Assembly (NCBI GenBank): GCA_029204225.1
Contig: CM055095.1
Coordinates: 45,557,446 to 45,621,445 of the forward strand
Length of the DNA: 64,000 nt
Direction of reading: 5' to 3'
DNA from: Diphasiastrum complanatum
Lineage: Eukaryota; Streptophyta; Lycopodiopsida; Lycopodiales; Lycopodiaceae
This document shows, piece by piece, positions 5,333-59,186 of this stretch. Position 1 is the first letter of the stretch, and the number at the start of each line of letters is the position of its first letter. The notes under the pieces were generated by a model, which searched no databases, was not told where the DNA came from, and saw only the letters and a program-made list of their open reading frames with translations. Position numbers and translations under genes: made by a program.

Positions 5333-6222
5333 CTTCCGGCATAGTCAGCGACCGGGACAGTAAGTTTACTGGAAATTTTTGGAAGGCAGTATTCCATCAT
5401 CTCCATACTAAACTTAATATGAGTACCACCGACCATCCACAGACGGACGGTCAAACAGAAAGGGTAAATCAAGTGCTGGAGGATATGCTTCGTGCATACG
5501 TCAGCAAGAGGCAGACTAATTGGGAGGAGTATCTCTCGATATTAGAGTTTGCTTACAACAGTACCAAACATTCAGCTACGGGATACAGCCCATTTATGCT
5601 GATGTACGGTTTTCAGCCACGCTCACCCACAGCTGTAGGGTTTAAACAAGAAAAAGTTGAAGCAGCCAGAAACTTTTTAGAAGACCTAAACCAGATGATA
5701 GAACATGCTAAGCGTAGCATTAGACAATCCCAGGATCGAGCCAGGCATTATGCAGATCCACACAGACGGGATGTGCAGTTCTCCACTGGTGAGAAAGTCT
5801 ACTTGAGAGTCCCAGTTGACTCTAAAACCCTCAAATCAGGAGTGTGTGCTAAGTTGTCTCCAAGGTATTGTGGTCCCTTTACCATCAGTAGGAGACTAGG
5901 CGAGGTCACCTATGAACTAGAACTCCCACACAGCAGTAAGGTTTTTCCAGTTTTTCATGTAAGTCAGTTACGAAAAGCCTTAACCAGATCAGATAATCTG
6001 GTAGGGGACAGTGTTCTAGTTCTCCCATTGGATCCTCAACAACCTCCACATGAACCAGAGGAAATTCTTGATAGTAGAGAGACGCAGACTCGTCATACTC
6101 TATACCGAGAATATCTGGTTAAGTGGAATGATCAGCCTGTTGAGAATGCCACTTGGGAAAGAGGCAGCGTCCTTCGCAAGATTTTTCCAGACTTTGTCTT
6201 AGAGGACCAAGACGATTCTTAA
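5333..6222 (+). pseudogene. Integrase C-terminus plus chromodomain (5'-truncated pol)
   Basis: Open frame of about 296 codons ending at a TAA. An upstream ATG at 5182 lies in the LTR of copy A and is accidental. Visible: second catalytic Asp of integrase ([12 protein letters not shown]), catalytic Glu in [10 protein letters not shown], a GPF motif in SPRYCGPFTI, then a chromodomain with YLVKWNDQ and TWE at about 6107-6160. Chromodomains direct integration to particular chromatin. The fragment is open but lacks the first integrase Asp and all upstream domains, so it is dead alone. Apart from the missing 5' part it is well preserved. Confidence 0.93.
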
Positions 6223-12675: not shown

Positions 12676-14330
12676 CAGGGGCTCGTTTCATACGTCGTTT
12701 CGAAACGCGTTTGAAACGACTGGTTCTGGTTCGAAACGGGAATTTTTTTTTTTCGTTTTTTTTTTTTGAATGTGTTTTTAAGGGTTTACACATGTCATAG
12801 ACAGTCTGGTAACAAGTAGATACATCCAATTTCATGAGAATGCTCTAGAGAATGCAATTTCAAGAGGAGAAGTTGTAGTATGGTGAGTCGTGACTATGGT
12901 CACTTTCCTCAGTCAATTATTGATATTGTCACCATTCATCATACAGTCTCAATTTTCAAACATCCAAGAACTTCCAAAAATTGTAAACAGTAAAGTTACA
13001 TTAATCAGAGAGAACACACTCCAATTTCTCTCATGACATGCCAGCTCCTAATGATACTTCGAAAAGATTTCATCATCAACTACAACCTATGTGTGTGCAT
13101 GGCTCTTGATCCTGAGCAACAAGAGTCCATGACCTGCACAAAGACTAGACATTGCCAGATTCTTGAAATGAACGAGTCGTCAAAAAGCACAAACAAATTA
13201 TTGACAATTACACGGCTGCTTGGGGGACAACCCTAACCTGGATACACATTCTGTGTGTATGTCCTCCAGTCGTCCACAAGCTCGGCATTTGTGAGTATGG
13301 CTCCAGTAGCCCACATAGGGTGAAGCAAATGAGCAACTACATGCATGGGCTTGTGGAAGAAATTCCACCTGTCAAGCCACTTCTCTCGGATAGCTAACAT
13401 CCTACAAAAACCAAAAAAGTAATCACTACATTGTAGGGAAAACAATTCAACAATGCTAAAACAAAACAAATGCACCAGACAGATTACAGAAAAGGTATAC
13501 CTGCGCTCATCAAAAAGCGGTCACTGAAGGGTCTCCCCAATCTTGTCCATAAACTCGTAAATGAGGCCAATTGTAGAACCCTCTCGATCCACTAACCTCA
13601 GCATGGTACACTGGTTCCAAGACCTCAACTAGCTGCTTGGCCTGTCACCAGAAATCATCTCCAAAAACAATCCTCTGGAGCCTAAGTCCAATTGGCTCGC
13701 TGCTACGATGCCACTGTGTGAACTTAAGGCTGGCTGCCATCTGGCACAATGCAAGTCGAACCCGAAGCAACCGCTCCAACATGACGACATGATAGGCAAA
13801 GCGTGTGGATGCTGGCTTCTTCAGATCCAACAGGCTATATGTCATGAACATGGCAAGGGGCCTCTTCTTCCTGGTTACAGATGTAAACAAGAAGATGGCA
13901 CTAAATGTGATGGTGGAAACCTGGGGGGGGGGGTAGTCCTATGTCATGCATCAAAAGATCGATGCAATGTGCTACACACGAGGTCCATACAATAGCAGGG
14001 TAGTCCCCTTCAAAAGCTCACCCATACCCACACAATTGTTGGCATTGTCGATGACCACTTGCACCATATGTTGTGCCCCCACCTCGATGACTGCTGCACA
14101 TATATGCTCATAGAAAAATTCTCCTAACTCAACAGTGCCATCTCGGGAAGCATCCACATCCCTGAGAAACACAGTACCCAGCGGACATGAAACCAAGATT
14201 TTGATAATAGGCTTGTGCCTATTATCAGTCCACCCATCCGATAGAATAGAGCAATCGTATGTGGCCCAGTCATGTCATATGGGCTGAGCTCCCTCGTGAT
14301 GCATGCATGCTCCTCTCTCATTTCAAGTGT
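12676..14330 (-). mobile_element. Degenerate hAT DNA transposon
   Basis: The left end reads CAGGGGCTCGTTTCATACG, typical of the CAGGG start of hAT terminal inverted repeats, followed by CGTTTCGAAACGCG palindromes. Inside, on the minus strand, are decayed transposase pieces. The right terminus is not seen; the microsatellite and reductase exon follow, so that end may be deleted or diverged. Confidence 0.7.
13233..14330 (-). pseudogene. hAT transposase remnant (DUF659-like region and downstream)
   Basis: Reading leftwards: a SDGWTD-like area broken by a frameshift near 14240. Then VSCPLGTVFLRDVDASRDG and VVIDNANNCVGMGELL (14190-14000), which match the DUF659 part of plant hAT transposases with its conserved D-N pair. 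Next are KKPASTRFAYHVVMLERLL (13830-13770) and EKWLDRWNFFHKPMHVVAHLLHPMW (about 13390-13310, positions given because the motif is long). Stops and frameshifts make it inactive. A related remnant lies in an intron at 49345-50460. Confidence 0.8.
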
Positions 14331-14356
14331 GTAATATAAATTGTGGGAGCATAAAA

Positions 14357-14357
<1 letters not shown>

Positions 14358-14424
<67 letters not shown>
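14358..14424. repeat. Compound (TG)n(AG)n microsatellite at a splice donor
   Basis: (TG)n then (AG)n on the plus strand, read as (CT)n(CA)n on the coding minus strand. It begins directly after the GTCAGT donor of reductase exon 2. Confidence 0.97.
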
Positions 14425-14427
<3 letters not shown>

Positions 14428-14429
14428 AC

Positions 14430-15364
14430 CAAGGACTCCCAAAAAATGAGTAAGAGGAAAGCTGTTTCCAGTAGGAAGTGGTCTCAAAGACTCGCCCTTT
14501 ACAATGCTAAAATCTTCCCAGCCTGTAAATCCTGTGACAAAATCACCTTTACTAAACTTAGGATGGCTTGATAGTACCACCTGGGAAACACCAAAGCCTG
14601 TGATGACCTGCAAAACAGGAAAAGGATACTGAATTTGAATACATCCTGAATCCTAGATCCAAATAAATGTTTTACAGACCATATGCGAGTCTAATTCACT
14701 TCAATATTATTTGTTGCTCACAGATTGTGACAGAAGCCATAGTTGCAGGAATATCTGTACGAAGGCAGATCTGTAAGTATGGTCATACAAGTATTCTTAC
14801 ATGTAGAGGAGGAAAGTGTACTGTCCGTATATGGGATGTATACCAGCTAATAGAGTTGGACCAGAGTTCATGAAAATTTGCTGCCTAGCCTTTGAAAACA
14901 TTCAAAAAGGTGAAGAACTACAAGGAAGCTTATAAGTTCAAACTTTGAGCTAAAACAAGCTACTTTGCAAAAACTGAAACACAAGCAACAGAATATACTA
15001 CAAGATTATTTGTATTTCTACAAAAACCTGTACACTATGTGGAGTAAGAGTATGAAAAACTTTAGATTACTTCAAATATCCATAGAGAAGTATAGTGGCT
15101 ACATTGATGTCAGGAACTAAGAATAAGTCCACTCACTGAACCAGGGAGAAAAGAATCAACATAAGAATTTGTTCTCTTTTGCATTCGTCCTCGCATATAA
15201 GGATCCGGTGATATGTATAGATTTTTCAGAAGGACATCTTTTGTTCCCTCTTGTAGTTGTAGAAGACAAGTTCCATCATGCAACTGCAAATCTGACACCT
15301 CAAAACTTCCTGTAACATAATCTTTCAGCATTATTTGTCTGTTCTTAACTACCATTGCAGCCAT
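14430..15364 (-). CDS. 2-alkenal / double-bond reductase-like gene, exons 1-2 only
   Basis: Exon 1 runs from ATG at 15364 to 15137 (76 codons, donor GTGAGT). Exon 2 runs from 14607 to 14430 (acceptor TTTTGCAG, donor GTCAGT). Together they give about 135 residues. The text (MVVKNRQIMLKDYVTG, NLYISPDPYMRGRM, GFGVSQVVLSSHPKFSKGD, GFTGWEDFS) matches the N-terminal GroES-like part of plant NADPH-dependent 2-alkenal reductases of the medium-chain dehydrogenase superfamily. These reduce alpha,beta-unsaturated carbonyls and are usually about 345 residues. The two exon borders match those I recall for Arabidopsis members. The NADPH-binding exons are not found to the left, where a hAT remnant follows. 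It is therefore either a truncated pseudogene or a gene with an intron longer than 14 kb. Both exons are free of stops. Confidence 0.8.
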
Positions 15365-16122
15365 GTGTCACCACGCAGGAGGAGCTATGAAGCCTTCAGG
15401 ATCTACTATTCAGTCTGTAACAGAAAATTATGTCCAGTTATGTAAGGGAATGTCTAGGATCTATCTTTTCTATATTTGTCTAGTAGATTTACTTTCAATA
15501 TATCAGAAAAGGCAGCTGACCCAAATCTACAGTTATTTTTTCTTCTATATTCAGGTCAGCGAAAAATGATGATTACTTTCACGTCAATATATCAAACAAC
15601 ACCTCATCATCATACATTCATAGCCATGATCTCATATTTAAAATCTTTATCACTATTGCAACTGGTATACGCACACCAACATAACCATAAAAACAGCAAT
15701 CAGAGGTATCGCCAGTAATTACAGTCCATATACAATATCAAAACCAGTATCACAGAATTATGCCACTTATAGGACTGATTTGAAACTATAGTTGAATAAT
15801 ATATTTCAAGCAAATGCAGGCTTTTGGTTTCATAGATTCTAAATTTCAAGAATGGCTACTTGAAATCTCTTGAGCTGTTGGAAGCAGAGGATCTCATTCT
15901 GCAGGTTTTCGGCATCTGCATATCATTCTACACATATGGAACGTATGTAGGAAAAGTATTTAAAAAATGAATCGGTAAAAAAAGTAAGCAAGCCAAAAAA
16001 ACTAATCCTGGGTTTTTCTAGAGAGACAATCCTATAAACAAAGCTGAAAACTGCTGCTTCATAGAGTTTTTGGCGGATTTCATCAAGCATGAGCCGTTTA
16101 AGCAATCTGGTATGTGGGACAC
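15365..16122. other. Upstream region of reductase exons; no gene seen
   Basis: AT-rich spacer between the reductase start and the copia LTR. Any reductase promoter would be here, but I cannot point to a convincing TATA box. Confidence 0.5.
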
Positions 16123-34842: not shown

Positions 34843-36194
34843 TTACAAAAAAAACCATGGCCAACGCTTCACATTCTGTTGTCGAATAACTTTTTTTGAA
34901 TCTATAAGTTGTTTGCTTGCAAATCGTATGGGATAGTCTTTCTTGTATTCACTTGGCTGCGATCCAATAGCATATTTTGAGGCATCAATGTGAACATGAA
35001 ATTCAATTGTCCAATCTGGAGCACGTAGTATCGGTGCCGAAGCTAATGCTTTTTTCAATTTCCAAAGGCTTCTAACGCCTCAATTGTCCAAATAGGAACA
35101 ATGGTTAGTTTGTATACAGGTCTCGCAAGATCAACAAAGAATATAATGAATATTCGATAATAATTTGCATGACCCATAACAGCATAAACTCCACGAATTG
35201 TTCTTGGTGGTGGTAATTCCACAATGACTTTGATTTTAAAATAATCCGTAGCAATGCCATGTCTTGATATCACATGCCCGAGAACAACTCCGTGAGAAAC
35301 CCATATTTGACACTTTTCTGAATTTAAGAAGATTTGGTACTTGTGACAACGTTCAAATACTTTTTCCAAATGATCCAGGTGGTCTGTATCTGCATTATGG
35401 ACTCTGAGATCATCCAAGTAAATTTCAAGGAATTTATGTAAATAATCTTTGAAGGCGAACTGCATTTTTCTTTGGAATGAACTAGGTGCATTACAAAGTC
35501 CAAACGACATTACTTTATAAGCATAAGTGTCCCATTCTGTTGCAAAAGCTGTTTTGTGATGATCTGCAGGTGCAATCTTGACCTGGTTGTATCCACTAAA
35601 TTCATCCAAAAAACTGTAAGCTTCCGCTCTAGCAAGGCGGTCCAAAATGCTTTCAATAAAAGGTAACAGAAAGTGATCATTTCGTGTCACTTTGTTCAAA
35701 GCTTTGAGATTCACCCAAATTCTCAACTTTCTACTCTTCTTAGGAACAATGACAATCGGTGAGACCCAACTAGTGTGCCCGATCTCATAAATGAAATCGG
35801 CTTCAAGCAATCTCTGTAACTCTTCCTTTATCAAATCCGTAACATTACATCGATAGAATTTTGTGACCTTTGGAACTACATCAAGCATTAAGAGTATGAT
35901 ATGCTCAATAACCGATGTCGGAATCTCTTTCAGATCTTTATGAGTCCAAGCAAAGCAATCGTAATACTTAATAAGCAATTTCCGTAACGCTTGAAACTGT
36001 TCAAGAGTAACTTGTGCCCCAACTTGTACAATCTTTTCTGGTTCTCCTGGTTCAGCAAGATTCATAGGCTGCGTCCTAGCTGGGCCATCGTAAACATCTT
36101 TCGATTCTGACACTTGTTCTTCAGGTTCACGATGTGCTTTTAGTAACATAATAACCACATCGTCCAAAGTATAGTATTTGAAATGCTCTGGCAT
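34843..36194 (-). pseudogene. Reverse transcriptase and RNase H start of Tat/Athila-like element
   Basis: A 379-codon open stretch from 36194 to 35055, then a frameshift into RNase H. Motifs: WVSPIVIVPKK, FSGYNQVKIAPADHHKTAF, VMSFGLCNAPSSFQRKM and IYLDDLRVHN (YLDD active site near 35410). RNase H starts with FHVHIDASKYAIGSQ (near 34990-34950). The 5' end overlaps a protease/linker frame by about 55 bases in another frame. Confidence 0.9.
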
Positions 36195-37560
36195 ATCATG
36201 TTGTACTTCATCTGATTTCTCTTTTTCAAAGGATTAGCATGGGATCTTTGTTTAGCTTTCTTGGCAGGAATCGATCGTGGAGGCGATGACTTCTGAGAAG
36301 ATGGATTTTTCTTCGAAGGTGATGACTTCCTGGATGGTGATGTCTTGCGAGAACTCTGACTTGAAGAATCATCTTTGACTTTCCCTTTGCCTTTATCTAG
36401 TAAAGGTGGCACATTCTTAGAATCAACCTTTTGAGGTGGATTTTCCCATTTCAGGACTGTATTATAATGTTGCTTAGCTTGTTTCTTTGTCATTGGTCTT
36501 GTAATCTTGTCTTCCTTCAATATAACTTCTTTTGGAGGTTTTATTGTTGGTTCATTGGGAATACCATGTACTCCAAATCTGGTAGGATCCATGTGATTTA
36601 GGATCTGCTCATCGATAAGTTTTGCATTGTCATCATAAGTCAAGGCGTGACTCACATGAATGAGCTCAATCGGATCTGGTATAGGTTCTATTGATATCCA
36701 AGCTACATTTAGCATGTTCAATGGAAAAGTGATTGGTATCCAAAGTTTGATCCAGTAATGAAATCTCGCTCAATTTGGACTGATTATCTTGTTGACACAT
36801 ATAGCCTGTTGTACAATCAATTGTTGCAAGAGCTTGATTCCAAATGACAGTATCGATTTGAGAGTCATAATGAACTCCCAGATTTTTCAGTGGTCGATCA
36901 CATGTATGATCCGTTGTTGATGAATCATCATCCCCTTTTTGGACTATTGGTTTGATAGTCCAAGTGATTGGATCAACTTTGACTGCACATTCACGATTTT
37001 CAAAAGTGAATTTTCTGGTACCCCAATTATGAATTACTTGCGCAACTCGTAACCATGGACGCCCTAATAGGACAGGTAGATATTTGGTGCATCAGGTAAG
37101 TCCATTAGTACAAAAGTAATGACAAACTGGACTCCAACAATTTTGACAGGTACATCTTCAATAATTCCTCGCGGACAAACTATCGTTTGATCAGCTAGCC
37201 GCAGGCTTAATCTTTGTAACGTCCCATTTTGCACATAGCTTTGTTGAAATCAGCTTAACTCCTAAATTTCCATCTATCACGGCTACTTCTTTAGAAAATT
37301 GTCTATGTTGTATTGGCAGAGTGATGTTTTTTTGTTCACTTTCCCAGGCAGCTCCGACATGGAGTACTGCATTAGATTCTTCAAATCCAACACAAAAAAG
37401 AGGTTCTTGATGGGCTTATGTTTCGATCTGAGTTAACTTCTGCGCTAATAGTTCTTTTGCTTTCGGCACCAACTTCAGAAATTCTCCCAATGTAATATTC
37501 ATCTTACTAGACAGAATATTCATGAGTAACTCTGTTTGCAACACTTATGGTTCAGTCATC
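36140..37560 (-). pseudogene. Protease region and linker of Tat/Athila-like element
   Basis: VAVIDGNLGVKLIS near 37280 stands where Tat/Athila proteases have a DGG/SGVN motif. LLGRPWLRVAQVIHNWGTR near 37070-37020 is a good family landmark. A basic, Ser/Lys-rich linker is open from 36721 to 36140 (SSRKTSPSRKSSPSKKNPS). Several stops between 37560 and 36722. Confidence 0.7.
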
Positions 37561-44155: not shown

Positions 44156-47100
44156 ATGGCTGCTGCTTCAAGCCTTATCGTCCCCTTCGTTGCATTTCTT
44201 CTCATGCTCACCAATTGGGTTGCTGACACAGACCCCTGTGTGGCTGCCATCACCTCAAAACAACAGAAACTCGTCCTTTTTCCGTCTGTCAGCTCCAATA
44301 GCACTATTCTGTCAGTGGTCTCAAGCGATCCAGACCTGGTAAGTATTGCTGCTCGTGCTCCATTCTCGGCAAGGCCTAATCTGCCAACGTACGGTGTTCA
44401 TACTGTATATAATCAAAGCTAGTGCTATCAAATATTGTCGCAATGTAAAACATATACACTTTTTATCTCACCAATCATAAAAGATTTGATTGGTTTATTT
44501 TCAAGAAATGCCTGGTTTCTTGAACATTATGAGTATCGAGCTCAAGTAGATCGGATTGTGTCTGTGTATATCATCAAGCTTTCATTTTTCAAGATAAAGA
44601 AATCTGCATGTTCAACATCAATGTAGATTGCTATATATTAGTATCATTTTTGGTTTTGAGCACTGAACTCAAGAAAATTCATGTCTCAGACAATACTAGA
44701 TAAAGCCATAAATGCAGCTGGAGTTAATGTGCTCCTTTCCAATCTGGACACAACATATTCATTGTTTGCGCCCACAAATGCTGTGTTTGAAAAGGCCTTC
44801 AAAGACAAGCTTCTCACCTGCGTCCATAAATATTACTATACGAGTTCTTGCCAATCTGTGCATCATTTGCTATCTGCTACAAACCTACATCAACTACTTT
44901 TGAATCATGGTATCGATCTTCCCATGTCATCAAAGTTCTCCTTCTTGCTCGTACTTTTCTATAATTGGCGTAAGAGTATTGTCCAATTTGGTGGTTGCTA
45001 ATGTGAGAGGTCACCTTTCTAGCAATGGACGATAACCTTTGGTAAGGGTAAATTGAATGTTTAAGTTGTATTGTTATGGTAAATTGCATTGGTAGTCCTT
45101 CACAAACATTCATCTCAACACTCATTTCACCTTCACAAAGAAGCACGGCCCAAGTTCCTTGCACGTATATGAAAGTGATCATTTCACATATAGAAATTTG
45201 GTTATGCTCAAGTTATTTGGACTCAAACGTGTGTAAAGCAAGCGTCCATGTAACCTTCGAAAGCTTATCATATGATTGATCATTTGAGGAGATCAAATCA
45301 ATAAAGCGTTGTTTCAGATTAATTACATTTTACTTGAGGAATTGTTATCTTCGTTTTTAAATTTAGTAAAATATAATTAGCTCTTGCATTATTATTCCTA
45401 TGAATTTTTGTTTTTTCAAAGGATTTGTTAAGGGTTACAATGCTATTGCTCCTATATCTTTTGGGGATCTTGTTCTCACGTTCAATATTGATGAGATTAT
45501 TGTGGCAATTTCCAAGTTAGTCCTTTGAGAAATGAAAATGGCAGTCACTATATTCAATGTTTGATGTGGAACAAATATCTATTATTGCCATGTTTGGTTC
45601 CTTGAACGTTCTTAAAAGTCGCCTTTTCAAAATTGTTGTGCAGTGGTGCATGAAACTTTTGATCTGGAAAATGTCAAACAAGGGGCAATGCTTGAATTTG
45701 TCGGAGGAGCTATCGAGCAGGTTTGTACTCCTTAACAAGCAGGGTTGCAAATTAATGAGAGGATTGCAAGGAATAAATGAGGCAAGAGCGTTGGATGATT
45801 TCCTTAAACATGGAGCTCCTCTAGAATGTTAACTTGTAGTTTGCCAAGTAGTTAAGAGTAGATCATAACGAGAACATGCATACACAATGAATAATCAATT
45901 GTAGATCACGATTTATGACAGCAGGCTCAGACAAAGTTCAATACTTAAGACTAGAATCTTAGACACAATGCTCTTATTGAAGGAGAAGTAACAATACTAT
46001 ACGGGATAACCACATGCACATGAACTAAAAACACATTCACAACAAGACAACACTAAGGGGTCAAGATGGGGGCCCAACTTAAGAAGGGATTTCCAGTCTC
46101 AAAGTGGAATAATGAGCTACAAAAAGCGTTAGTAGAAATCTTGATCTACTTGTCAGATGTATAGACTTGCAAAAAGGTCCACGAAACGTTGATCCACTTG
46201 TACGAAGCGTCTTGACAAGTTTCTGAGATGAAAGTCAAAGACATTGCCTTGCCAAATTGTGGAGATTTAGTACTGACGGTTTGGAAGCCCCATTTTTTCT
46301 TACATAGAAAGAATCGATTAATAGACAACTTTGCTATAGGTATTCTAGTGAGCTGTAGAATATATAGATCAGGGCAGGTGCCTTTCTTTTCATCTTTGCT
46401 AAAAATCACCAGCAAGCCGAAAGGTGCTTTCTAGGGCTGGCAAGCAAGCTTTGAAAGGTCAAATTTTTTTTCTTTTGCATGAAAAATTCTCCTTGTCTTG
46501 GAAAGTGCTTTTATACACTGTGAAGAAGCATTCATCATACGAATATGCATATAATAGTAGTAAGGATAACATATTTTATATCAAAAATGAATATCCAACT
46601 CAATTCTCACAGTAATCAAGAAAGCTAATATAACATGAGTAGACGGCCCTCGTGCATAGCGTAGCTGCCCACAGGCGTCTCCTACGAAGAACTTTGAAGT
46701 TTCCTAGCAATCAACTGCTAAATTGAAAGAAGCAATGCCTATTTATAGTCCCTGGACGTCACTTAGGGATAGGGCACAAGTCTCTTTGCCAGTACATGCC
46801 ATCTTTGCATGTCTGTAACTCAAACTGACTCAGAACAAGTATCAGCCATGGCTGATGTGGCCAGTCCTGTCATGATTCTTGCATCAAATTTTCTTTTGAA
46901 CATAATTTACATAATTTTAAATCTTACATGAATGGATGGTCCAGATTGAGCTTGGGGACCCCCATAATCTAGGACATAATGATGAGATTCGATATTTTCC
47001 TACAAATCCGATTGGCTGTAATTTTCAGCCATGAAAATAAGCAGCCCTTATGGATGGAATCTTGAAAATATGGAGCTCTCATGAATGTAACACGAAATTA

Positions 47101-47902
47101 CAAAGCTCTCTTGGATGGAACCTAAAAATTATGTCCTATAATGCCATTTGTGGGCCCAACATACTTTTGGAGTAAGATTTTTGTGACACATTATACTCAA
47201 TAATGTTATTGAAGCAGAATGTAGGGAGCAAGGTTGTTTCTTACAGCATATGAAACATGGAAAACTTCCCACATTCCACATGGATCGACTTCTCTTTAAA
47301 ATTTTTATTGCTGAAAAATAAATTTCTTTTTCTTTCATTTTTGTCATATGAAACATGGGAAATGTAATATACTCTGCATGGAACATACGTTTCTAAAAAA
47401 TCTTTTTCTCTGTCAAACAAATGTGTCTATTTTGCTTATTTAAAAAATTCAGCATGTACGAATCATGTTCCATTTCGTACTTATGGAATAGAATGTAACT
47501 TTAGAAAACTGATGTACCGAGCTGGAGGTGCCTTTTAGAAAATTTCTCAAAATGTTTCTCTTCAAAGTGGAAACTAAGTGCTTGTATGGAACGGAATGTA
47601 CCTTAAAAATGAATCCCAAGATGGGTATCTATAGGTCCACTATGTACATAGATGTTTCAATTGAAAATTAAGTGCTTGCATCTGTGCACTGTTAGGTCTC
47701 CAGAATTGCTGGCAAGACACGAGTTGGGGCTTGTACAATCACTTCAAGCACAAGAGCTATCAATGGTGTTGTACTTGTAGTCGATGCTATTTTTGGTTCT
47801 ATCAATCCCCTTACAGGGCTATCCGCCGATCTATCATTGAATGCCTCCACCGTGCAAGAGGCTTCAAAAGTTGCAGATGCGACTTTCTTCAATACATCCA
47901 AG
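44156..47902 (+). CDS. FAS1 half of the fusion (exons 1-4)
   Basis: Exon 1 gives the signal peptide (LIVPFVAFLLMLTNWVA) and the lead-in NSTILSVVSSDPDL. Exon 2 carries TILDKAINAAGVNVLLSNLD and the H1 motif YSLFAPTNAVF (84-94), then LHQLLLNH (to 134). Exon 3 continues GFVKGYNAIAPISFGDLVL. Exon 4 carries the H2 motif INGVVLVVDAIF (185-196). These are the landmarks of one complete fasciclin domain, an extracellular adhesion fold. There is no Pro/Ser-rich arabinogalactan region and no GPI signal, unlike typical plant FLA proteins. The acceptor of exon 4 (CTCCAG at 47703) is chosen because only it keeps phase with the donor at 45516. The stretch CVHKYYYTSSCQSV in exon 2 is unusual for FAS1. Confidence 0.78.
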
Positions 47903-50900
47903 GTATTGTATCCCTACAGTGCCTACACTTATTGTAACAATCACTGTTGTTTTGAATTTTTTCATGATTAGAAACGTTCTGATAATTCAAATCTATTTGC
48001 GATTGGATTTGAGAATTTACATCACTTTTTTGGTGAAGATTTTGCATTCTCTCATGCAGATTTTTGAATCATTATGCTTTCCAACGATTTGAACTTTGAA
48101 ATCAAATTTCTTATCAATTAGATGCTGTGCAGTGGGATTACAGTTTTAACAATTCCTTGCTCTTTGCATTCCTAGTTCAGCTTTCTCAAAAATTTGTATT
48201 TTCTTCTTGGATTTTTTTGATTTGTTATTGTAACTTTTATCTCTAGAGGGAGGAAATGGCGGAAGGAGTACAACTGTTAAATATTCCAGCTTTCCAGATG
48301 AATAGAAACTTAGTGGCATTTCCTGATGGCGGACTTGAGCATTCACCTGTTCTTGTCTTTGATCCAAGTTTGAATACCAAAGGGTTTCAGGGTCCAGACG
48401 GGAAATTCAAGTATCCTGAACTTCAAAATGTCATTCGCCCTTCAGACAATGTTGATTTGGCATATATGACTGTAAGTATATAACTCTTTTGATGCAGTAG
48501 TACAGAATTTTTGGGATACTACTGTGAAAATCACAAAAAGCAAAATGTTTATTGCTTGTACCTGATATTTAACTAATGCGATTAAGCATTGCAGGTTCTT
48601 GAACTAGGGGCACTTATTAGAACTAAACAAGTAACATCCTTGGAACTTGTGAACATCTTCACAGATCGGCTTAAGAGGTGACTAAACTTTTTTTGCCATA
48701 TTGGGCTAGAATTATGCAAACTACTGTTGGTGAACGTATGCTGCTTTATGAGCGGTAGACTGTTAAACAAAAAGCAAAATTTTCACTGCTTACTATTTTA
48801 TCAATACCAAAGCATAAGTTGCTTTCTGGATCTCAAGACAGCCTAGGATTCCAACATTTCGACTTTTGAAGAAACTTAGTGGAGTGAAATTCCTATTTTC
48901 GGAGACCTCTAACACAAAATCAAACTCAATAGTTTTGTGGTCCTTTTTGGAAAGCATTGCTAGTAGACAGTTTGCTGCTCTTTGAGGTTTTGATTTTGAT
49001 GCTATCTTCTATATGTCTTTGTAACTATTGGTTACTTGGTAGGTCCTTCCATACAAGAGGCTTACGAAGCAAGGGAACACTCAGGGGTCAAGGTTCAAAG
49101 CCATAATATGAAACATGATCCTTGCCACTAACTATTTAGTTTGTAGACATTCCGTAAGCCCAATGATAAAAAGGTTCCCTTTGGCCATTACACTGAAACA
49201 AGGCTCTTTGGGAGTTATAAATATAGAATAACGTGAGGCCAACTCAGATGACTCAGACTACCAGTCGGAGTATGAGTCATTGTCCCAGTGATTTTATACT
49301 GTTTGATCATTTCATTGTACTGGACTGTGAAGGCCCTATGAACCTTAAGAGGATGCTTGATGTGCAATTGCTTGGGATGCCCCGCTCCTCTCTACATACA
49401 ATGAACCCAACCCCCCTTTCGCAACATTTCTCAGTCGCCTCCTAGGCCTATCTGCAGGAGGAAGTGGCTCCGCCTGTGTCTCTGCGTCGGGGTCCACTAG
49501 CAATTGTTCTATATCATCCCACCGCTCATCCTCCCTCTCCCCCTCATCCATCCACTCCTCGTAGTCCACTTTATACTCCTCTGCCTCCGCGCGTGAACCC
49601 TCCTCATCTTCCTCCTCCCTATTTGGTCTCCTCCCAGCTGCTCTCCTGTGGGGTCGTGCAGATCGGGCCTTGGCATCTATTTGCATGTGCAAGTCCTGAA
49701 AGATATCATTCTCAACCTCGGCCTGCGTAGGAGGTCCTCGAGGAACGGTGGCATTGGTGTCGAGCATGCACAAGTCAGGGGTCACCTGCAACCACAATAG
49801 AAACCGAGTTATCACAAAATTTTTATTGTTGAGTTAACAAGATATGTATTGATACTAACAATGACGAAAACCAATACATATCAAAACCAGATAAAACATA
49901 AACTAACCCCCAACAACTCTCCAGATGCTGTGTAACATCGTAGCATTCGCGCATTGCTAGAAACATACACCAGTCGCCTGCACTGATCGATCGAGAGCTA
50001 GTTCCTCCTCTTTATGTGATAAATGGACCGAGTGCTCCAGTTCTGCTCACAGGCGAAAGCTGAACAGTCATTTGACAACACTCTCTCTGTCAAACGCTAG
50101 AGATCTGCATGGATGGCCCCGATAACCCCACCATGTCACAGGATGCATTGGTCTTGCCTCCTCGTGCGCTGGTCCCATGCAAATGTGCCTAAAAGCATGA
50201 ATCAAATGGGCATGAATCATTGAAGCACTTTAGAGTTCCTTAAAAAACTTGTCAAGAATACCTAGTCCTGGATAAACTCGCTCTGTATACTCCACCCATC
50301 CTCGGTGGAGCTCCAAGTCATCCCGCCGTCTACCAGTGCGCCACAGGGGGTGCAATATATGGGCCATCGCGTGGATGGGTATGTTGAAGTAATCTCACCT
50401 CTCTTGCCAAATGTCTAGTAGCAAGGGATAGGACCTGGCCTTGTCCAAGCTGAATCATATATAATATATATATTATATATTACTTACTATTGGATCTAAA
50501 AATTTGAAGTTTTAAAAATATTTTAGAAAACAATCAGAACAATATCATCTGACAAAAGTGTGGAGAGGGAGCAACCTTGCTTCACCTCAATGGTGCTCCA
50601 TATACAGTCTGAGATGCCAGTGTCACTCCGATAACAACCAACAACTCGCTCATAAAGTGCCATCATTGCCAAGACTATATCAGTGGAAAAGCCAAAATCA
50701 CGTAACCTCTGGATGAGGAGAGTGTGGGACAAAATCAAAGGCTTTCTTGAAGTCAACAAAACAACAGTAAACCCTTTGTCTCCTATGTCTGACTTCCTCA
50801 ATGATAGCTTGAAGAGTGAAGATATGGTCTGTAGTGGAATAATGAGCTTGGAAACCAGCCTGTCCCAATGCATGTAATCTTTTGATCTCCACTTCTGAAT

Positions 50901-52157
50901 TAACTGCGGATTGGAGAATGCTACCATGCAACTTCGCAATGACGTGCCGAATCATGATAGTGTGATCGTAGGCACGTTTTTTATTATAGAGTGTGCGGAG
51001 ATCGGTGAGCAATATGAAGAGCACCGAATTATGAATCATCGAATCGCGATTTCATGCATCTATGACTGAAAGTAATATAAAAGTAAAGGACGCCACTGTA
51101 ATAATGTATCATTGATGCATGTAATGGCCATCATATGGACATGTATGTTCATAACATGTACCAAGCACACCCAAATTTTGTTTGAAGTTCAAAATGTTGG
51201 AAATGGTTCTAGAGATTTTTCATCCAATATCTAGAAAAGATTTTACTCGCGTGTTTTTCTCTTGTTGTCTTCTAATTATTTTTGGTGTTCTATAACATAG
51301 CATATTCCAATGCAATGGGATATTTTTTGATTTGAACTCTCTTTTCGTAAAGAAACGAGTTGGTATGTTGCTATGTTGGGAGCACAAATGAAATGAAGTG
51401 GGGCGGTTATACCAAAACATTCTCATACGATTGGCAGTAGATTATTAAGATATTTGCTCTTTGACTTTTGAATGAGAATTCAGAATACTGTCTTGCTTCA
51501 TCAAAGTACTCTCTTAAATATCTACAACTAGTTTGAATACTTGCAACAACCTACTGATTTTCCTAGAGTTGCTTGCTGTTTAATTAGTGAGATTGATGAG
51601 AAAATTGCTATGAATATTTGACAAACTTCAGATGTTAGGCATCTCCATAGAATACGTTTTGCTCTATTGATGCATTCGCCAAACTTGTTATATTATTTTA
51701 GCTGATTTATTTTAAACGATATGATTCAAATTTCAAAGTTGTGGGCCTTATAAAGTAGCTTCAAATTTCTATGAATGCTAAATGTGTTAGGTATGATGAT
51801 ATTTTGAAAGTGGTTATCACGTACACGGAGAAGCTTGCAAAGGAGCAAGCTTCAACTGCAGACAATTTGCTTGAGAAAGGCATTTACCTTGGTATGCTTC
51901 ACTTCTAATGTCAAAAATCAATTTGATTCTTTTAATAGCTCAAAAAGGAAGCAAGACACCAAGCTCTTGGTGATAGAGAAGAATGCCAGTCCATGTGTTT
52001 ACAATGAGGTTATCTATTTATTGTCTGTGACAGGCCCACTACATGGAATACCGTATGGTTTGAAGGACATCATTGCTGTACCAGGCTATAGAACAACTTG
52101 GGGGTCTACATCCTTCAAAGATCAGTTCATCAATCAAGAAGCTTGGGTATATCAAAG

Positions 52158-52199
<42 letters not shown>

Positions 52200-52220
52200 G
52201 CACACGCACACGCACACGCA

Positions 52221-52252
<32 letters not shown>

Positions 52253-55200
52253 CGCACACACACACACACACATACAACCTCAGTGGTTTGTGAGTATGCT
52301 AGATATGTGCCTATTGTTGAAATTGAAGTGATTTTAGTTATGATCAAAATTCCACATATGGTAAACCGTAAGAGACATGAAGCTTCATCGAGGAGATGAA
52401 TCAAAATTTTTGATGTGAGCAAAATAATATGATTGCTCCTTTGAAGAGAAGTGCTTATTGCTAGCTATAGCTAGATCTCTATGTATTGTGTATCAATATG
52501 AGCTAGACAACTATCATAAATTTTTGAACCTTCACCCAACTGTAAATGAGGATCTCATGCCTTTCTATACTCTTCTAGAACCCCGTAGCAAGGAAATGAT
52601 CTGAATCTGAATATTTGGGGTTTAGGGGTGGACTTTCCTTTCCCATCGTTGAAATTTGACCCAAAAATTTGGGCCCGAAATCTCCATCAATAAATCATGG
52701 GCCCATTGAAACCCAAATAGCATATTCAGGGGTGCAAATGGAGTCTAAAATCTGTGGATTGAAACTCCAAATACCTATATTTCAGGGTGTAAATACTTTC
52801 AATTGTGATACTAAAAGCAATCAATTATTCATCACATTCTAGAAAGGACCAGATACTCATGAGAGATTTATTAAACTGCACTTTTGCATTTTGTTGTGAG
52901 AGATGACAATGAACGTTAAGTGAGAGAGATGTAGTTTGTTAATGTCTTCGGGCCCACGTTATGTAATTCCTTTTCCACCCACAAAGAGACCATAATTCAT
53001 CAAGTACTGTTCAGCATCTATGACTCAAAAGTACATTGACAACTACAGATTAGTGAGGAGTACACTGACTAACCACCATGTGGCACAAATTGGACGTTAA
53101 CAAATCTGAAGCTTATTATGACACAATAATAGTTCAACACTTGCAAGTTGTTGATGTATTATCAATAAAAGGTGGTGCAAGAGATGCTGTATATGGCAAC
53201 ACACAACATGGTGGAAGGAGGATGCTCTGGGAGAAGAGCATTCTCAGGTGGAGCAATACATTTGCATGATGCCCAACATGGGTAAACGAGGAAAGGAACA
53301 TTGTGGAAGGAGGATGGTTTGGGTAAGAGCATTCTTGAGTGGAAGAGTTGTAGAACCCCGAGGGCTCCGTTTGTGAAAGAAGTAATATGTTCATCACGAC
53401 GTCATTACCCCTATCTATCTTGCTTGATAAGTATGCAGCTCTTCAACTAGAGGTGATTCTGATGAAAATAGACATGTTAGAAGCACTAGAAGTTGTTAAA
53501 TATACAATTCAAAGTTGTCTTTTGCTCATTTTGAGCGCACCAAAATAAATATTGAAAATTGGAATTTCAAGGCATGCAGAAACTTAGTAGGATCGCTTAT
53601 TTTGAGGGTCAAAGCTAAGAAAACCGACCTGAAGATCTCTGCAATTTAAAGGTCCCAAATCATGGAGTTCGAGGTGTGAGTAGCACCAAACAACCGACAG
53701 ATCAGGTTTGGAGTTTTTAGCAGCAAACTAACAGTCTTTGAAGCAAATGAGAGCAAGAATTACAGGCTCAGGCCCTAGAACTGAAGCAAATGAGTACCTA
53801 ATTTTCTTTTATCAAACAGAGAGTTCCCGAGTCACTGTTTGATGTGTGAATATTCACCAAACATTTACAAATCAGATCTGAAGGTCCTAGCAGCAACTTA
53901 GTACTGATGTAGGAAGCAAACAAGAGGAAATTTGAGGGGTTTGAACTTAAAAATGAAGCAAATAAATAGGTTGCTAAAAATTTCAGCCTATACATACAGA
54001 ACTTGATCTTTTCAGTCTCTTTGTGTTCAATGTCCTGAAAAATAGAAAGAGGTTTAGCACCCTGATTCTGGTGCATATTTGAAATGAAAGCGAGGTAGAG
54101 CTGATTTGGCAAAAGAACAAGAAATTCAATCGACAGATGCTTGTTTATCAAAGATGGAGCTCTTTGGAGACCTGACGCCCTACTACTCTAGATTTAAGAA
54201 GCAGAAAAACACTATCGCCTTCTCTCATAAAGCAAATTTGCAATAGAGCCTTAACAAAAAGCGGATCTTGATGTCCAGAAAAGCCATAAGCCTGCTGTGG
54301 CATTCTGACGGACCAGCACTGTACAGTACATAATTTCAAAAAATCCAATTCAAAGAGTTTCACATCGATTGGGGAGTCAAGCCAATTTCTTTAAATCATA
54401 TCTTTGAGGAGCTAATTTTTCTTTGGCCCTTTATATTTTTTCCAAATTTGAAAAAAGTGTCGGTTTTTTGGAATTGTTTTGCAGTAGGTCAATATGAACG
54501 TACAGACAATAATTTGATTTGACTCGAATTGACCGACTGGGTGGCGCTACAGTAGGTGTAGTTTTGATGCATGTAAACTCTTTCACTCACTTTTCCTAAC
54601 TCAGAAAGTGCTATCATAACTAAGTTACGAGCAAAATCTCTATAAGCATAATGACCGAAGCAGAGTAAAAATTAAAAAACAAATTAATTAATATGACAAA
54701 TGATCAACACAATATCACCTCTATGGCAGCTTCAGATAGCTATGAATTTTTACGACAGTTACTAACTTTCAAGATACATCCAAAAGTCAAACTAGAGAAT
54801 TGTGACATTATACCCAATCTACTTTTCCATAAATTCCTGTTCTTCGTCCAAGTACATCTTTTTGAAAATTCCACTCTACTTGCTCGCTGATCAATGAATG
54901 CACTAAAATTTTGAGGTTGTGAACCAAAGAAGCCGTATGCCTCCCTAAGATTGAGAAGAATGAAGTTTATTGATAACATGAACAAAAAGTCTCAAAATGA
55001 TTGCTCTACTCAAAGAGAATAGGTAGCCCTAATTTGTTTATATCTACTCTAAGCTATCTGAGCCAGAGTTGCTATGCTAAGGTTCTATATCTTCAACCAA
55101 TTATGAATGAGGCTTCCAGTTATTTTTAGCCATTTCAAATGCCACTGCACTCTCTTATTCTGATATTCTATGGAGGGAGGGCTTAAATTTGTATACTTAC

Positions 55201-58200
55201 AGCTAGACTACCTTTGCGAGTTGAAATTATGCCAAAAACGTCATTAATAAATGACGGATCCATAGAAAACTTATCTTTGCTAGAGTTTCAACTTCTAAAT
55301 CACGTTTGAAAATTTTCAAATCCAAAGTTGAACTCCGCCTTTAATTATTCCAAATTAGCTTATCTGAACAAGGAGGATAGTTTTGACAAAGTGAAGCGCT
55401 CATATTTGAAAAAATCTATGGTTTCTCAAGGGTAAAAAATGAGGAGCGATTGGAAAGAAAGGTTTTGCATTCATGACTGGAGCACAATACTTGATATTGG
55501 ACATCTAGCTTTAATGTCGAATCAGTCTGCTGCTTTGTTTAAAACCATGTAGGGCTTTGCTTTACTTTTGGTCCCTGCTGGGCTTTTATTTACACACACA
55601 ACTTCATGAATGAGAACTTTGATTGAAAGAGAGCCATTTTTTGTGTGGAAAATTTGGCACTTAATCTTGGTCAACATTGAAGCTAAAGATTTAAGGAATT
55701 GCAATAGTTGAGGCATGATAGTTGAAGTTTCAAGCTTGAATTCTTACAGAGGATGTTCTTATATCACAGGCTAAAGGCAGCTGGTGCAGTGCTTATAGCT
55801 AAGCTAGTAACTGGATCTTTAGCTTATGATGACATCTGGTTCGGTGGACGCACACGAAATCCTTGGAATATTGAGGAGTTTTCAACTGGATCTTCTGCTG
55901 GGCCCGCTGCTGGCACTTCAGCTGGTCTGACCGTCTACTACAATTGTTATTGCATGCTCCTTTTGAATTTGATTATTTAGAAGAGGCCTTTCTATCAACA
56001 GTTTTGCCAGTCTTCTTTGCATAGTGTCCGTCCAACATTGAGTTATACAGAGTGCTTGTTCTAATTGTCAGTTCCTCTGTATTTTGCCGATCCAACATAC
56101 TTGTGGCAGGTTTGGTCCCCTTTGCGATTGGATCAGAGACAGCTGGCTCTATCACTTATCCTGCAGCACGTACAGGAGTTACTGCTATAAGACCAACATT
56201 TGGAATGGTTGGACGTTCAAGTGTGTTTTCTTTGTCAAAGAGCTTGGTATATTCACCTTTTCTGTGTGAAATCAACTTGTTTTCTCTTTGTATTTTGGAC
56301 CAACTCACTTGGAGCAATATCACAAAGCAACCTGTGATCAACGTTCAGTCTGGAAGTTTTTTCCAATTCGGTTGACCTTTCAGTGGAAGACTTCCAATAT
56401 TCCTGAATTGGTTGCTGCTCTGTAGAAACCTCAAACCTGATTTCACTTCCAGAAAGGGTCCAATCTGAGGTCCTTCCTTCTGACATGTGAAGCCTTACGC
56501 CTCAGGCTTTCACCCTTGGCGATTGGCTTCACATAGTCGAAGAGCCTTAATCTGGGCCCTTCTCCCCCCACTCGACAAAAGACTCATTCAATTGGGATGC
56601 TAAATATGAATGACTTTATTTTAGGTTGAAAGCATGAAGGTATGTAGAACTGTTTGAGCTGTAACTTACATGAACATCTAGGTGCTGAAGATTAGAACAT
56701 GCAACATACATGAACATCTAGGTGTTGAAGATCAGAACAGGCCACATCAAGACATAAGAGAGATGGAGAAAACATAATGCTTATATTAGAGAAATTGCAA
56801 ATACTGCAATGAGAATGAGAGAGACAAAGATGAAGTTATGCAGAAGTTGTCTCCTCACATCTAATCCACTGCTTCCAAAACCTGTTATGCTTAGAAGAAC
56901 CGGACCATATTAATTACATCATGTGAGGCATAGTCGTGTCGTTAGATCTTCGATATAGTTGGTACATTGTGAATACATTCAATGACCAATGAGTGCACTT
57001 AAATGTCCAGTGCACTAATTCACAACTGATTTAGCTCATTACTCAAATGTGATAGCTAGAAACTGAAAAAGAGCACACTGCTGACAACTTTTGTGAAGTC
57101 ATGATGTTGTCATAATGGATGTATAAATCATATCCCTAACACTAAGTTTGTCAACTCTAAACCTTAAACCCTACCATTTTGATGTATTTGGCCTCTCTTG
57201 GTTGGAAGATATATTCCTAAATAGAATATCAGTGTCTGGAGCACTTATGTTGTCACCATGATTTAATTAGATCAGCCCCAGAACTTGGTTGCATTTTTGT
57301 GCCCTTCTTGTCCCATACGTCTGAGAAGTTTCATCTATAGCTGTCCAATGAAGGAAGACGGGGGTCGGGGTTGGGGGGGCGTGGGGGGTGCCTGAGCTTG
57401 GTTAGGCCAGTGGGTTCTCCAGAAATTCCTTAATGAAATTGTGTAACATGAGATCCACTTTCCCTACCCTTTCAATATGTTAAAAAACCATAAACCTAGT
57501 TTAAACGGTAAAGTCTGGATATAAGGAGTACATGTAGTGAAGTCCTTTTGCTTAGCTTTTCAATATAATCCAAAACCTTAAACTTCAAAATTTACCAGTA
57601 AATACTGATTTTGTATATTTAGGCCAAAGTTTCATCTCATGATATGTCTTTGTTGCAGGATAAGCTTGGTCCATTTTGCCGAAGTGCTGCAGATTGTGCT
57701 GTGATTCTTGATATCATTCGTGGAAAGGATCCAGGTGACACGTCCTCCAAGGACATCCACCTGAAAGACCCATTCTCAATAGATGTTTCGAAGCTGACTG
57801 TTGGTTACCTTGCAGATGCAGACATGGAGGTGAGTTTTCAGTCTAATTCAAGGTCTGTTGATGACTTCTATAGTTTCTTCCTTTTTTTACTACTATCATA
57901 GTAGAACTTGTCTTTATATGACCTTGGGTTTTTGTTGTGTAAATCAAAAGGACTTAACAATCTAACCATAGAGCTTGAGTATCTGTAATAGTATCATTGT
58001 GAAAATCGTCTTGATACATTTGAGTTTCACTTTTAAGGTTGTGTGGGTGCTCAAACACAAAAGAGTCCAGATTGTACTGATAGAGCTCAAGTATTTTATT
58101 CATCTTCATCATAAAAATCACTTCGATATGATTGTGGAGTTTCTTTGCTTTTAAGGCTGTGCAGCTGCTAAAATCAGGAGTTAAGATTGTACCCATAGAG

Positions 58201-59186
58201 CTCGAGTATTTTGACTATCATCTTAGTGAAAATTGTCTTAATAAAATGATGGGTTTGGCTTTCTTTTAAGGTTGTGCGGGTGCTAGAATCATCAGGAGTT
58301 AAGGTTTTACCCATAGAGCTCAAGTATAGCGTGACATCTGCTGGAGCCATTCTGAACTTTACTATGGATGTTGACACGCTCTCTCATTTAGACCATTGGC
58401 AAAGAACTGGCCTAGATGACGACTATGAAGCTCAAGATCAATGGCCAGTTGAGCTACGCCGTGCTCGTCTCATACCTGCTGTTGATTATATACATGTATG
58501 AAAAAAGCTTTTCGTAATGAAGCATGGCCTCATATAGAATTTAAGATGTGGTTGTGTTTCTGCCAAGTTAGCGTTATTTTTTTTTTCTTGTATTCACCCA
58601 TGCCCATATGGGCAGGAAATCAAACCTGATTGAGCAAGCTCAACTGAAGCATACCATGCGTGGAGTGATCAAGTTAGCCTTAATATAATGCTTGTTTTTT
58701 AACTGCTTTCCCATCAGGCGCAAAGGGCGAGGGGAATTCTTGCTCGAGAGATATTGGAAAACTTCAAAATGATGGATGCCTTCATTGGAAATGCTACAGA
58801 TTGGGAAAAAGTAGCTGTTGGAAACCTTGTGGGCATGCCTGTTGTGGTTATTCCCACTGGTCTTAAGAATATAACAGCACCACTGCCTTCAGGCACAAAA
58901 CGGAGAACAACTATCACAACTGGCATTTATGCAGCCCCATATCATGATTCAGAGGTACAATTACATAAGATGTGAGCACCAATTTAATAGATTCACAAGA
59001 CTAATCAAGTTTCTGAATAGGTGTCCGATATTTCGATATGAGTTGCTTTGATAATTGTCGATCATGTTTTGAGTTGCATCGCATTTGCAGGTGTTAGCAT
59101 TGGCAATGGCATACCAGCAGGTGACCAAACACCACCTTCAGCGGCCACCAATCAATGATCTCGGGCCTGGAGACTTGTACTTTTAG
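44156..59186 (+). CDS. FAS1 domain-amidase fusion protein, 14 exons, 749 residues
   Basis: Exons: 44156-44338, 44690-44909, 45422-45515, 47704-47902, 48247-48471, 48595-48677, 51791-51891, 52034-52157, 55770-55924, 56110-56246, 57659-57829, 58271-58495, 58718-58954, 59091-59186. All introns begin GT and end AG, phases agree across every junction and no stop interrupts the frame. Predicted protein: signal peptide (about 1-22 or slightly longer), FAS1 domain (about 48-197), linker (198-300), amidase-signature hydrolase (about 301-735). Six N-glycosylation sequons (Asn48, 212, 229, 593, 664, 690) fit a secreted or wall protein. The start ATG has a good context (CGATGG). The amidase part is closest, from memory, to bacterial secreted-type amidases rather than to GatA or FAAH of plants. 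It should hydrolyse an amide; the substrate is unknown. An alternative reading is two genes, with the amidase starting at Met 48256. The phase-0 join at 47902/48247 argues for one. Exon 3/4 borders are the least certain. Confidence 0.82.
45516..47703 (+). other. Intron 3 of FAS1-amidase gene (2.2 kb), with an unexplained coding-like patch
   Basis: Donor GTTAGT, acceptor CTCCAG. At 45640-45832 the plus strand reads VVHETFDLENVKQGAMLEF, then GGAIEQ before a stop, and a neighbouring frame continues ALDDFLKHGAP. It looks protein-like, but I do not recognise it and it cannot be spliced into the gene in frame from exon 3. The rest, from 46600 on, has LTR-like but unassigned sequence. Confidence 0.5.
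48247..59186 (+). CDS. Amidase half of the fusion (exons 5-14)
   Basis: Exon 6: VLELGALIRTKQVTSLELVN. Exon 8: GPLHGIPYGLKDIIAVPGY with catalytic Lys379. Exon 9: WFGGRTRNPWN and FSTGSSAGPAAG with the cis-Ser (Ser451/452). Exon 10: IGSETAGSITYPAARTG with nucleophile Ser475. Exon 11: DKLGPFCRSAADCAVILD. Exons 12-13: RLIPAVDYIH joined to AQRARGILA, then GNLVGMPVVVIPTG. Exon 14 ends RPPINDLGPGDLYF and TAG. All three members of the Ser-Ser-Lys triad of the amidase signature family are present and no core segment is missing, so the enzyme is probably active. Bacterial relatives have the same order, including the VDYIxAxRAR helix. Confidence 0.9.
49345..50460 (-). pseudogene. hAT transposase C-terminal remnant in intron 6
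   Basis: Reading leftwards: IPIHAMAHILHPLWRTGRR near 50390-50330 and YTERVYPG near 50280, parallel to HVVAHLLHPMW and YTQNVYPG in the element at 13233. Then come HPVTWWGYRG near 50140 and a 156-codon acidic tail (49815-49345: NREEEDEEGSRAEAEEY, PPADRPRRRLRNV). A decayed hAT of the same family. The 156-codon frame is not a gene of its own. Confidence 0.7.
50523..51039 (-). pseudogene. LINE reverse transcriptase fragment in intron 6
   Basis: YSTTDHIFTLQAIIEEVRHR, VYCCFVDFKKAFDFVPHS, a frameshift, then LIQRLRDFGFSTDIVLAMM and EVKQGCSLSTLL. The end joins SDDIVLIVF by a small internal deletion. Same family as 6940-9900. No poly(A) seen. Confidence 0.83.
52158..55769 (+). other. Intron 8 of FAS1-amidase gene (3.6 kb)
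   Basis: Starts GTCCTCTCTCT and ends ATCACAG. After the microsatellite there are two partial duplications (about 53204-53255 with 53296-53345, and diverged repeats at 53640-53975). Otherwise nothing recognised. Confidence 0.7.
52162..52275. repeat. Compound (CT)n(CA)n/(CG)CA microsatellite at splice donor of exon 8
   Basis: (CT)n, then (AC)n with interspersed GCAC units, beginning four bases inside the intron. Confidence 0.97.
56247..57658 (+). other. Intron 10 of FAS1-amidase gene (1.4 kb)
   Basis: GTATAT donor, TTGCAG acceptor. There is a small duplication of GAACATCTAGGTG-TGAAGAT near 56670 and 56710, and a G-rich run near 57359-57390. No coding sequence recognised. Confidence 0.7.
57915..58330 (+). 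repeat. Tandem decayed copies of intron 11 end plus exon 12 start
   Basis: A unit of about 115-118 bp beginning TTTTAAGG occurs at 58031, 58149 and 58264 (the last is the real acceptor), with a partial copy around 57945. Each copy keeps the acceptor-like TTTTAAG and about 18 codons related to VVRVLESSGVKVLPIELKY in an open frame. Confidence 0.85.

Follow-up and report, generated by a model that had tools for sequence, protein, structure and literature searches.

A lycophyte gene predicted to encode a secreted FAS1-amidase fusion with a bacterial-type catalytic half

Background

The FAS1 domain is described as containing H1 and H2 regions and a central Tyr-His (YH) motif, and in FLAs it follows a signal-like N-terminus, with a Pro/Ala/Ser/Thr-rich AGP region and a hydrophobic C-terminal tail as further features (PMC6032426); the main text of that paper does not contain the word amidase. 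Fusion of horizontally acquired prokaryote-type domains has been reported for the plant Tm-1-like gene, which was traced through streptophytes (PMC5028733), and arthropod HGT-chimeras, which are often transcribed, unite host and acquired sequence within a single open frame (PMC13389597).

The gene described here lies in a 64,000-nucleotide stretch of Diphasiastrum complanatum DNA (the window) and resembles each of these systems in part. It has in common with FLAs a signal-like N-terminus as well as a FAS1 domain bearing motifs of the H1 and H2 types, but by eye it has neither the AGP region nor the hydrophobic tail, its FAS1 domain is spread over four exons, and the likeness of that domain to the host FAS1 profile is low (11.9 bits). 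Like the Tm-1-like gene it is a plant fusion with prokaryote-type domains, but the domains are others, and it is described from one genome. The one-frame makeup is common to it and the arthropod chimeras; those are animal genes, whereas here we infer the transfer. In the exported bacterial amidases (loci L034-L113) the plant enzyme finds a collinear counterpart, including the N-terminal segment and the Lys-Ser-Ser residues. By eye, the N-termini of many of these bacterial proteins are Tat-like or lipobox-like, and none of 79 shows FAS1 (Pfam); the plant gene, by contrast, is split into 14 exons and carries a FAS1 domain. When the plant protein and the bacterial profile were compared with PDB sequences, GatA (4wj3, 2df4), peptide amidase (1m21), biuret hydrolase (6c62) and FAAH (6dhv) were among the best matches for each, and such solved amidase-signature structures match mainly the catalytic part of the plant protein. 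No FAS1-amidase gene was found in the literature searched, which comprised titles and the beginnings of abstracts of openly available papers.

Results and discussion

Structure of the gene

We consider it likely that the locus is one plant gene coding for a secreted enzyme: its signal-like N-terminus leads into a FAS1 domain (to about residue 193), and a full-length amidase of the exported bacterial type follows directly (about residues 203-736). The open spliced frame, the two domains, the Lys-Ser-Ser residues and the homology reaching into the exon of the FAS1 end are the parts of this reading that are given directly by the DNA. Fourteen exons between 44156 and 59186 on the + strand join into a single open frame of 2241 bp that has no internal stop or frameshift, codes for 746 aa and closes with a stop codon whose last base is 59186; all 13 introns are of the GT...AG type and the exon phases agree (Table 1). 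The exon number, agreeing phases and single frame had been proposed in the initial annotation, together with a length of 749 residues, which splicing the exons corrected to 746. Its numbers for the catalytic residues (Lys379, Ser451/452 and Ser475) were also three too high, the residues themselves being present in a full amidase.

A possible additional FAS1 exon (45422-45515), bounded by AG and GT, was rejected. If it is included, the next exon reads into a TGA after a few codons, so skipping this segment is right. Intron 11 was seen to hold repeat copies of the start of exon 12.

Table 1. Features of the FAS1-amidase gene (positions in the window)
Feature	Position	Strand	Content
Exon 1	44156..44338	+	aa 1-61; ATG, signal-peptide-like hydrophobic N-terminus, start of FAS1 region
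Exon 2	44690..44909	+	aa 62-135; FAS1, H1-type motif YSLFAPTNAVF
Exon 3	45644..45720	+	aa 135-160; middle of FAS1
Exon 4	47696..47902	+	aa 161-229; FAS1 end (INGVVLVVDAIF), amidase-family N-terminal segment from about aa 203; probable fusion joint
Exon 5	48247..48471	+	aa 230-304; remainder of amidase-family N-terminal segment
Exon 6	48595..48677	+	amidase; bacterial-profile alignment
Exon 7	51791..51891	+	amidase; Pfam match
Exon 8	52034..52157	+	amidase; catalytic Lys376
Exon 9	55770..55924	+	amidase; Ser448/449 (GSSAG)
Exon 10	56110..56246	+	amidase; nucleophile Ser472
Exon 11	57659..57829	+	amidase; about 10 family residues absent close to exon end
Exon 12	58271..58495	+	amidase; bacterial-profile alignment
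Exon 13	58718..58954	+	amidase; bacterial-profile alignment
Exon 14	59091..59186	+	amidase C-terminus and stop
AATAAA	59339..59344	+	152 bases downstream of the stop

The FAS1 half

PF02469 matched residues 60-192 with 36.1 bits (Pfam cut-off 22). The H1 and H2 regions could be recognized by eye in the predicted protein, and both FAS1 landmarks claimed in the initial annotation were found (Table 1); the central YH motif is Asn-His (NH) in the fusion, again by eye. The host comparison set consisted of 14 domains from 30 loci, after sequences with stops, those shorter than 100 aa and identical ones had been dropped. Whereas host members, each left out in turn, reached 45-143 bits against the host set, the score of the fusion FAS1 half against the host profile was the lowest of 35, and against a bacterial FAS1 profile it obtained 55.2 bits. 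Ranked by likeness to the fusion domain, all 14 host domains stood below all 20 bacterial ones, the plant comparison being with this host only. In the FAS1 tree the fusion grouped with divergent bacterial domains (97/88 with L160), on long branches. By these scores the FAS1 half lies at a great distance from the sampled host FAS1 domains. A reading of this half as bacterial in origin was nevertheless dropped: host FAS1 domains themselves reach 22-69 bits with the bacterial profile, so the bacterial likeness of the fusion domain is not special.

The amidase half

The generic model PF01425 matched residues 321-575 with 180.8 bits (Pfam cut-off 27), whereas a 558-position profile of 79 bacterial amidase relatives reached 531.6 bits over plant residues 203-736; this alignment is collinear, spans profile positions 28-555 and includes the N-terminal segment. 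The relatives were obtained in an alignment-based search, from which the best 80 of at least 585 loci were kept; the search with the protein alone found none in genome contigs, and no relatives were found in viral contigs. Identity between the plant and bacterial proteins was 39-44% for these best 80 of at least 585 loci; elsewhere, identity in the catalytic part rose to 47% at most. Judged by sequence, the amidase half is thus something other than a generic plant amidase, namely one of the bacterial exported type.

The catalytic Lys and Ser residues are kept in the predicted protein; we take their assignment to a Ser-cisSer-Lys triad, and its spacing in the fusion, after FAAH and peptide amidase. 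The plant protein keeps 90 of the 112 columns with at least 95% conservation. The 22 that are changed include the aligned start methionine and a Trp to Lys exchange at residue 502, so the enzyme may be altered in its activity or inactive. According to the bacterial-profile alignment, the residues missing from exon 11 (Table 1) belong to the surroundings of the exon 11/12 junction. None of the 25 NCBIfam amidase models listed (of 26) reached its cut-off with the plant protein, which scored 154.8 with GatA (cut-off 481.1), 181.3 with AtzE (461) and 142.2 with indoleacetamide hydrolase (532); four bacterial family members likewise fell below the cut-offs. No named function was found for the bacterial group (L034-L113), and with the NCBIfam cut-offs missed as well, the substrates suggested earlier (N-acyl amides, hormone conjugates or microbial molecules) are left unsupported.

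N-terminus and export

Of all 15-residue windows in the protein, residues 4-18 are the most hydrophobic (mean 2.4), and the product of the fused gene is probably secreted. The six N-glycosylation sequons noted in the initial annotation are present, but they were rejected as evidence of secretion: shuffled sequences contained 4.1 on average and 1089 of 5000 had at least six, a count no more than chance.

The joint in exon 4

Homology to the bacterial amidases starts in exon 4, beyond the end of FAS1, and continues across intron 4. In an anchored test the exon-4 tail added 6.6 bits, a gain equalled by 6 of 5000 shuffles of the tail and by one of 5000 when residues 193-250 were shuffled as a whole; the best shuffle (214.7) exceeded the real score (210.2). 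Scored alone against a short bacterial profile, the tail obtained 5.0 bits and 54 of 20000 shuffles were as good (15186 gave any score), a value too weak by itself, and the exon-4 homology rests on the anchored test. A profile of the N-terminal segment gave 17.4 bits with residues 193-300 (best of 5000 shuffles, 11.6), to which exon 5 contributes part. In a second phylum, 29 of the 51 listed matches began at or before residue 229 and none before 181. The matching segment corresponds in the bacterial model L034 to two helices (residues 43-53 and 59-81; block pLDDT 95-97), and the bacterial-profile alignment places intron 4 close to where the second helix starts. These observations suggest that the fusion joint is probably inside one exon, exon 4, which argues against two neighbouring genes.

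Two tandem genes, with exons 1-4 coding for a secreted FAS1 protein and the rest for a cytosolic amidase that begins at Met233, would agree with the ATG at 48256, with the lack of FAS1 in the 79 bacterial relatives and with the weakness of the exon-4 tail when scored alone. This arrangement seems unlikely to us in view of the tail homology in the anchored test and of the junction between exons 4 and 5, which is in frame (phase 0), has GT-AG ends and leaves only 344 bp between the exons; moreover, an amidase starting at Met233 would miss part of the N-terminal family helices and any export signal. Intron 4 contained no poly(A) hexamer or TATA-like match. This is nearly neutral, since the region upstream of exon 1 likewise yielded no TATA-like match and two AATAAA occur in intron 3. 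The single fused FAS1-amidase gene put forward in the initial annotation is supported by the continuous frame, by both Pfam families exceeding their cut-offs and by the amidase homology from exon 4 onwards. Homologues with the two domains always in separate neighbouring genes had been named there as an argument to the contrary; in the 79 bacterial amidase relatives the domains are indeed not joined, and this bears on the timing of the fusion, not on this genome.

Origin and possible role

The product of the fused gene would most likely be an apoplastic Ser-cisSer-Lys amidase in which a bacterial export segment is replaced by a signal peptide and FAS1. The catalytic half would derive from a bacterial enzyme whose export or lipid-anchor segment was exchanged for the plant signal peptide and FAS1 domain. 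The protein would then be exported to the apoplast, where FAS1 may bind partners in the wall or at the surface and the Ser-cisSer-Lys site may hydrolyse a small or peptide-like amide. It is plausible that the FAS1 adhesion module has the predicted role of holding the amide hydrolase in the wall or matrix. More tentatively, a land-plant lineage may have taken up an exported bacterial amidase and joined it to a FAS1 domain from outside its own FLA family, giving a one-copy wall-associated amide hydrolase outside the described plant pathways. If the fusion gene is confirmed, it would exemplify clearly how an exported enzyme of bacterial type was turned into an extracellular protein of a plant, with a new anchoring module; it would also provide a concrete candidate for an apoplastic amidase.

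The gene was the only copy found in the 1.74-Gb genome. In an amidase tree with 78 bacterial family loci (46 labelled Bacteroidota), the plant sequence fell inside an 80-row clade with 98/97 support, on a very long branch (2.04) and with neighbours supported at 87/32; of the five outgroup rows, L033 also fell inside. Acquisition of the whole fusion ready-made from another organism, instead of its assembly in plants, might explain why the FAS1 half prefers the bacterial profile and the company of divergent bacterial domains in the tree. We regard it as improbable, however, because the 79 bacterial relatives examined by Pfam included no fused one and host FAS1 domains also score with the bacterial profile (see above). 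Among the matches listed from 1185 genomes of three phyla, only that of G058 began before residue 177 (at 107); by eye, this ORF starts in a Tat-like manner and contains nothing resembling FAS1. Three genomes (G001, G021 and G034) had the amidase and no FAS1 match, and in four others (G008, G022, G035 and G037) FAS1 and amidase were on separate contigs or more than 300 kb apart.

That the gene is a decaying copy with an accidentally open frame is very improbable. The changed conserved columns, the long branch, the missing stretch of about 10 residues and the repeated exon-12 start would be compatible with pseudogenisation, but the coding sequence runs through 14 exons without an internal stop, a frameshift or a non-GT-AG intron, and the catalytic residues are kept.

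Structure and copy number of the probable fusion gene

The predicted FAS1-amidase gene (44156-59186, plus strand) consists of 14 exons separated by GT-AG introns, whose phases match to give a single open frame of 746 residues. It encodes a Fasciclin domain (residues 60-192, 36.1 bits against a Pfam cut-off of 22) and an Amidase domain (residues 321-575, 180.8 bits, cut-off 27); the exon phases and the joining of both domains in one frame, as proposed in the initial annotation, were thus reproduced. The catalytic residues named there are present, but their numbers were three too high, the correct ones being Lys376, Ser448/449 and Ser472. Their Ser-cisSer-Lys assignment and spacing follow those of FAAH and peptide amidase. 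The six N-glycosylation sequons listed in that annotation are within chance expectation.

The window is located on a 78.7-Mb contig of the 1.74-Gb assembly, whose FAS1 genes, LTR elements and gene structure point to a plant host. When the assembly was searched with the whole protein and the best candidates were scored, all 14 exons were found here and in no second place, and identity in the remaining places was 27-40%. A bacterial family member used as query recovered the fusion gene and also regions of two further contigs, C1 and C3.

Relationship to bacterial amidases

The 80 best bacterial loci among the matches listed (at least 585) showed 39-44% match to the fusion protein. A profile was built from 79 of them (L074, which has an in-frame stop, was left out; L085 is truncated at a contig end). 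Positions 28-555 of this 558-position profile aligned to plant residues 203-736 with 531.6 bits. The plant protein retains 90 of the 112 columns that are at least 95% conserved in the bacteria; among the 22 changed columns one is merely the aligned start methionine. Substitutions in conserved columns, such as Trp to Lys at residue 502, suggest that the pocket is altered or, in the worst case, that the enzyme is no longer active. About ten residues of the bacterial family are missing near the exon 11/12 junction (57829-58271), where a micro-exon may have been missed.

A tree was built from 84 rows, one from the plant, 78 from bacteria and 5 as outgroup; the plant sequence fell within the bacterial group (80-row clade, support 98/97). 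Because its branch is very long and an outgroup row was also inside, the tree fixes neither the donor nor the direction of any transfer. Strong matches are common in sampled bacterial genomes: 188 of 395 in the phylum of genome G021 (E 1e-80) and 51 of 396 in that of G022 (E 1e-90). The 80 loci represent a large family spread over several bacterial phyla, many of them with Tat-like or lipobox-like export signals at the start (by eye); four members compared with NCBIfam reached the cut-off of none of the models shown.

One gene or two

In the predicted model of the bacterial locus L034 (mean pLDDT 94.3) the N-terminal segment of the family forms two helices (residues 43-53 and 59-81). By profile alignment, its plant counterpart is encoded by the tail of exon 4 and exon 5, and exon 4 also encodes the end of FAS1. 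With the other sequence fixed, the real exon-4 tail was worth +6.6 bits, a value equalled by 6 of 5000 shuffles, the best of which scored higher; when residues 193-250 were shuffled as a whole, one in 5000 was as good as the real sequence. Scored alone the tail is weak, equalled by 54 of 20000 shuffles. Of the 51 listed matches in the phylum of G022, none begins ahead of residue 181, and 29 have their start no later than residue 229, where exon 4 ends. Intron 4 (344 bp) contains neither a poly(A) hexamer nor a TATA-like match, and an AATAAA lies 152 bases 3' of the fusion-gene stop. This carries little weight, since a TATA-like match is also lacking in front of exon 1 and AATAAA occurs twice in intron 3. 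Taken together, these observations favour a fused gene over two neighbouring ones, as far as sequence can tell.

Origin of the FAS1 half

FAS1 was found in none of the 79 bacterial amidase relatives. Profiles were made from 14 domains kept from 30 host loci and from 20 bacterial domains. The FAS1 half of the fusion scored 11.9 bits with the host and 55.2 bits with the bacterial profile, whereas host domains scored 45-143 bits with their own profile, each left out in turn, and 22-69 bits with the bacterial one. The FAS1 half is thus distant from the host set, and no more than that; a bacterial origin does not follow. A FAS1 tree put it beside a divergent bacterial domain (97/88), but both branches are long and this placement was not relied on. 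Unlike fasciclin-like arabinogalactan proteins, the fusion has no AGP region, and it carries Asn-His where PMC6032426 describes Tyr-His as the central FAS1 motif.

Possible function and precedents

The FAS1 and amidase families are each well known; their combination is, to our knowledge, the new element, and no report of a FAS1-amidase gene was found among the matches listed from the open-licence literature. Fusion of acquired genes has precedents in plants (PMC5028733) and in arthropods (PMC13389597). Most likely, the fusion protein would enter the secretory path and attach through FAS1 to a partner in the wall or at the surface, so that its Ser-cisSer-Lys site would hydrolyse an extracellular amide. 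FAS1 would then stand in for the bacterial export signal or lipid anchor.

Other features in the window

Additional features found in the window
Feature	Position	Strand	Remarks
115-bp tandem repeat, 2.2 copies	58069-58327		intron 11 and across the exon 12 start
RVT_1 reverse-transcriptase fragment	50701-51051	minus	within intron 6; scores 21.6 bits and so misses the cut-off (29.6)
ADH_N_2 oxidoreductase gene, two pieces	14326-15367	minus	42.0 and 43.5 bits
LTR-retroelement piece, SH3_Tf2-1 and chromodomain	5179-6219		
LTR-retroelement piece, reverse transcriptase	35058-36233		

Inspected by eye, the copies of the 115-bp repeat contain sites resembling splice acceptors, along with degenerate versions of the exon-12 start.
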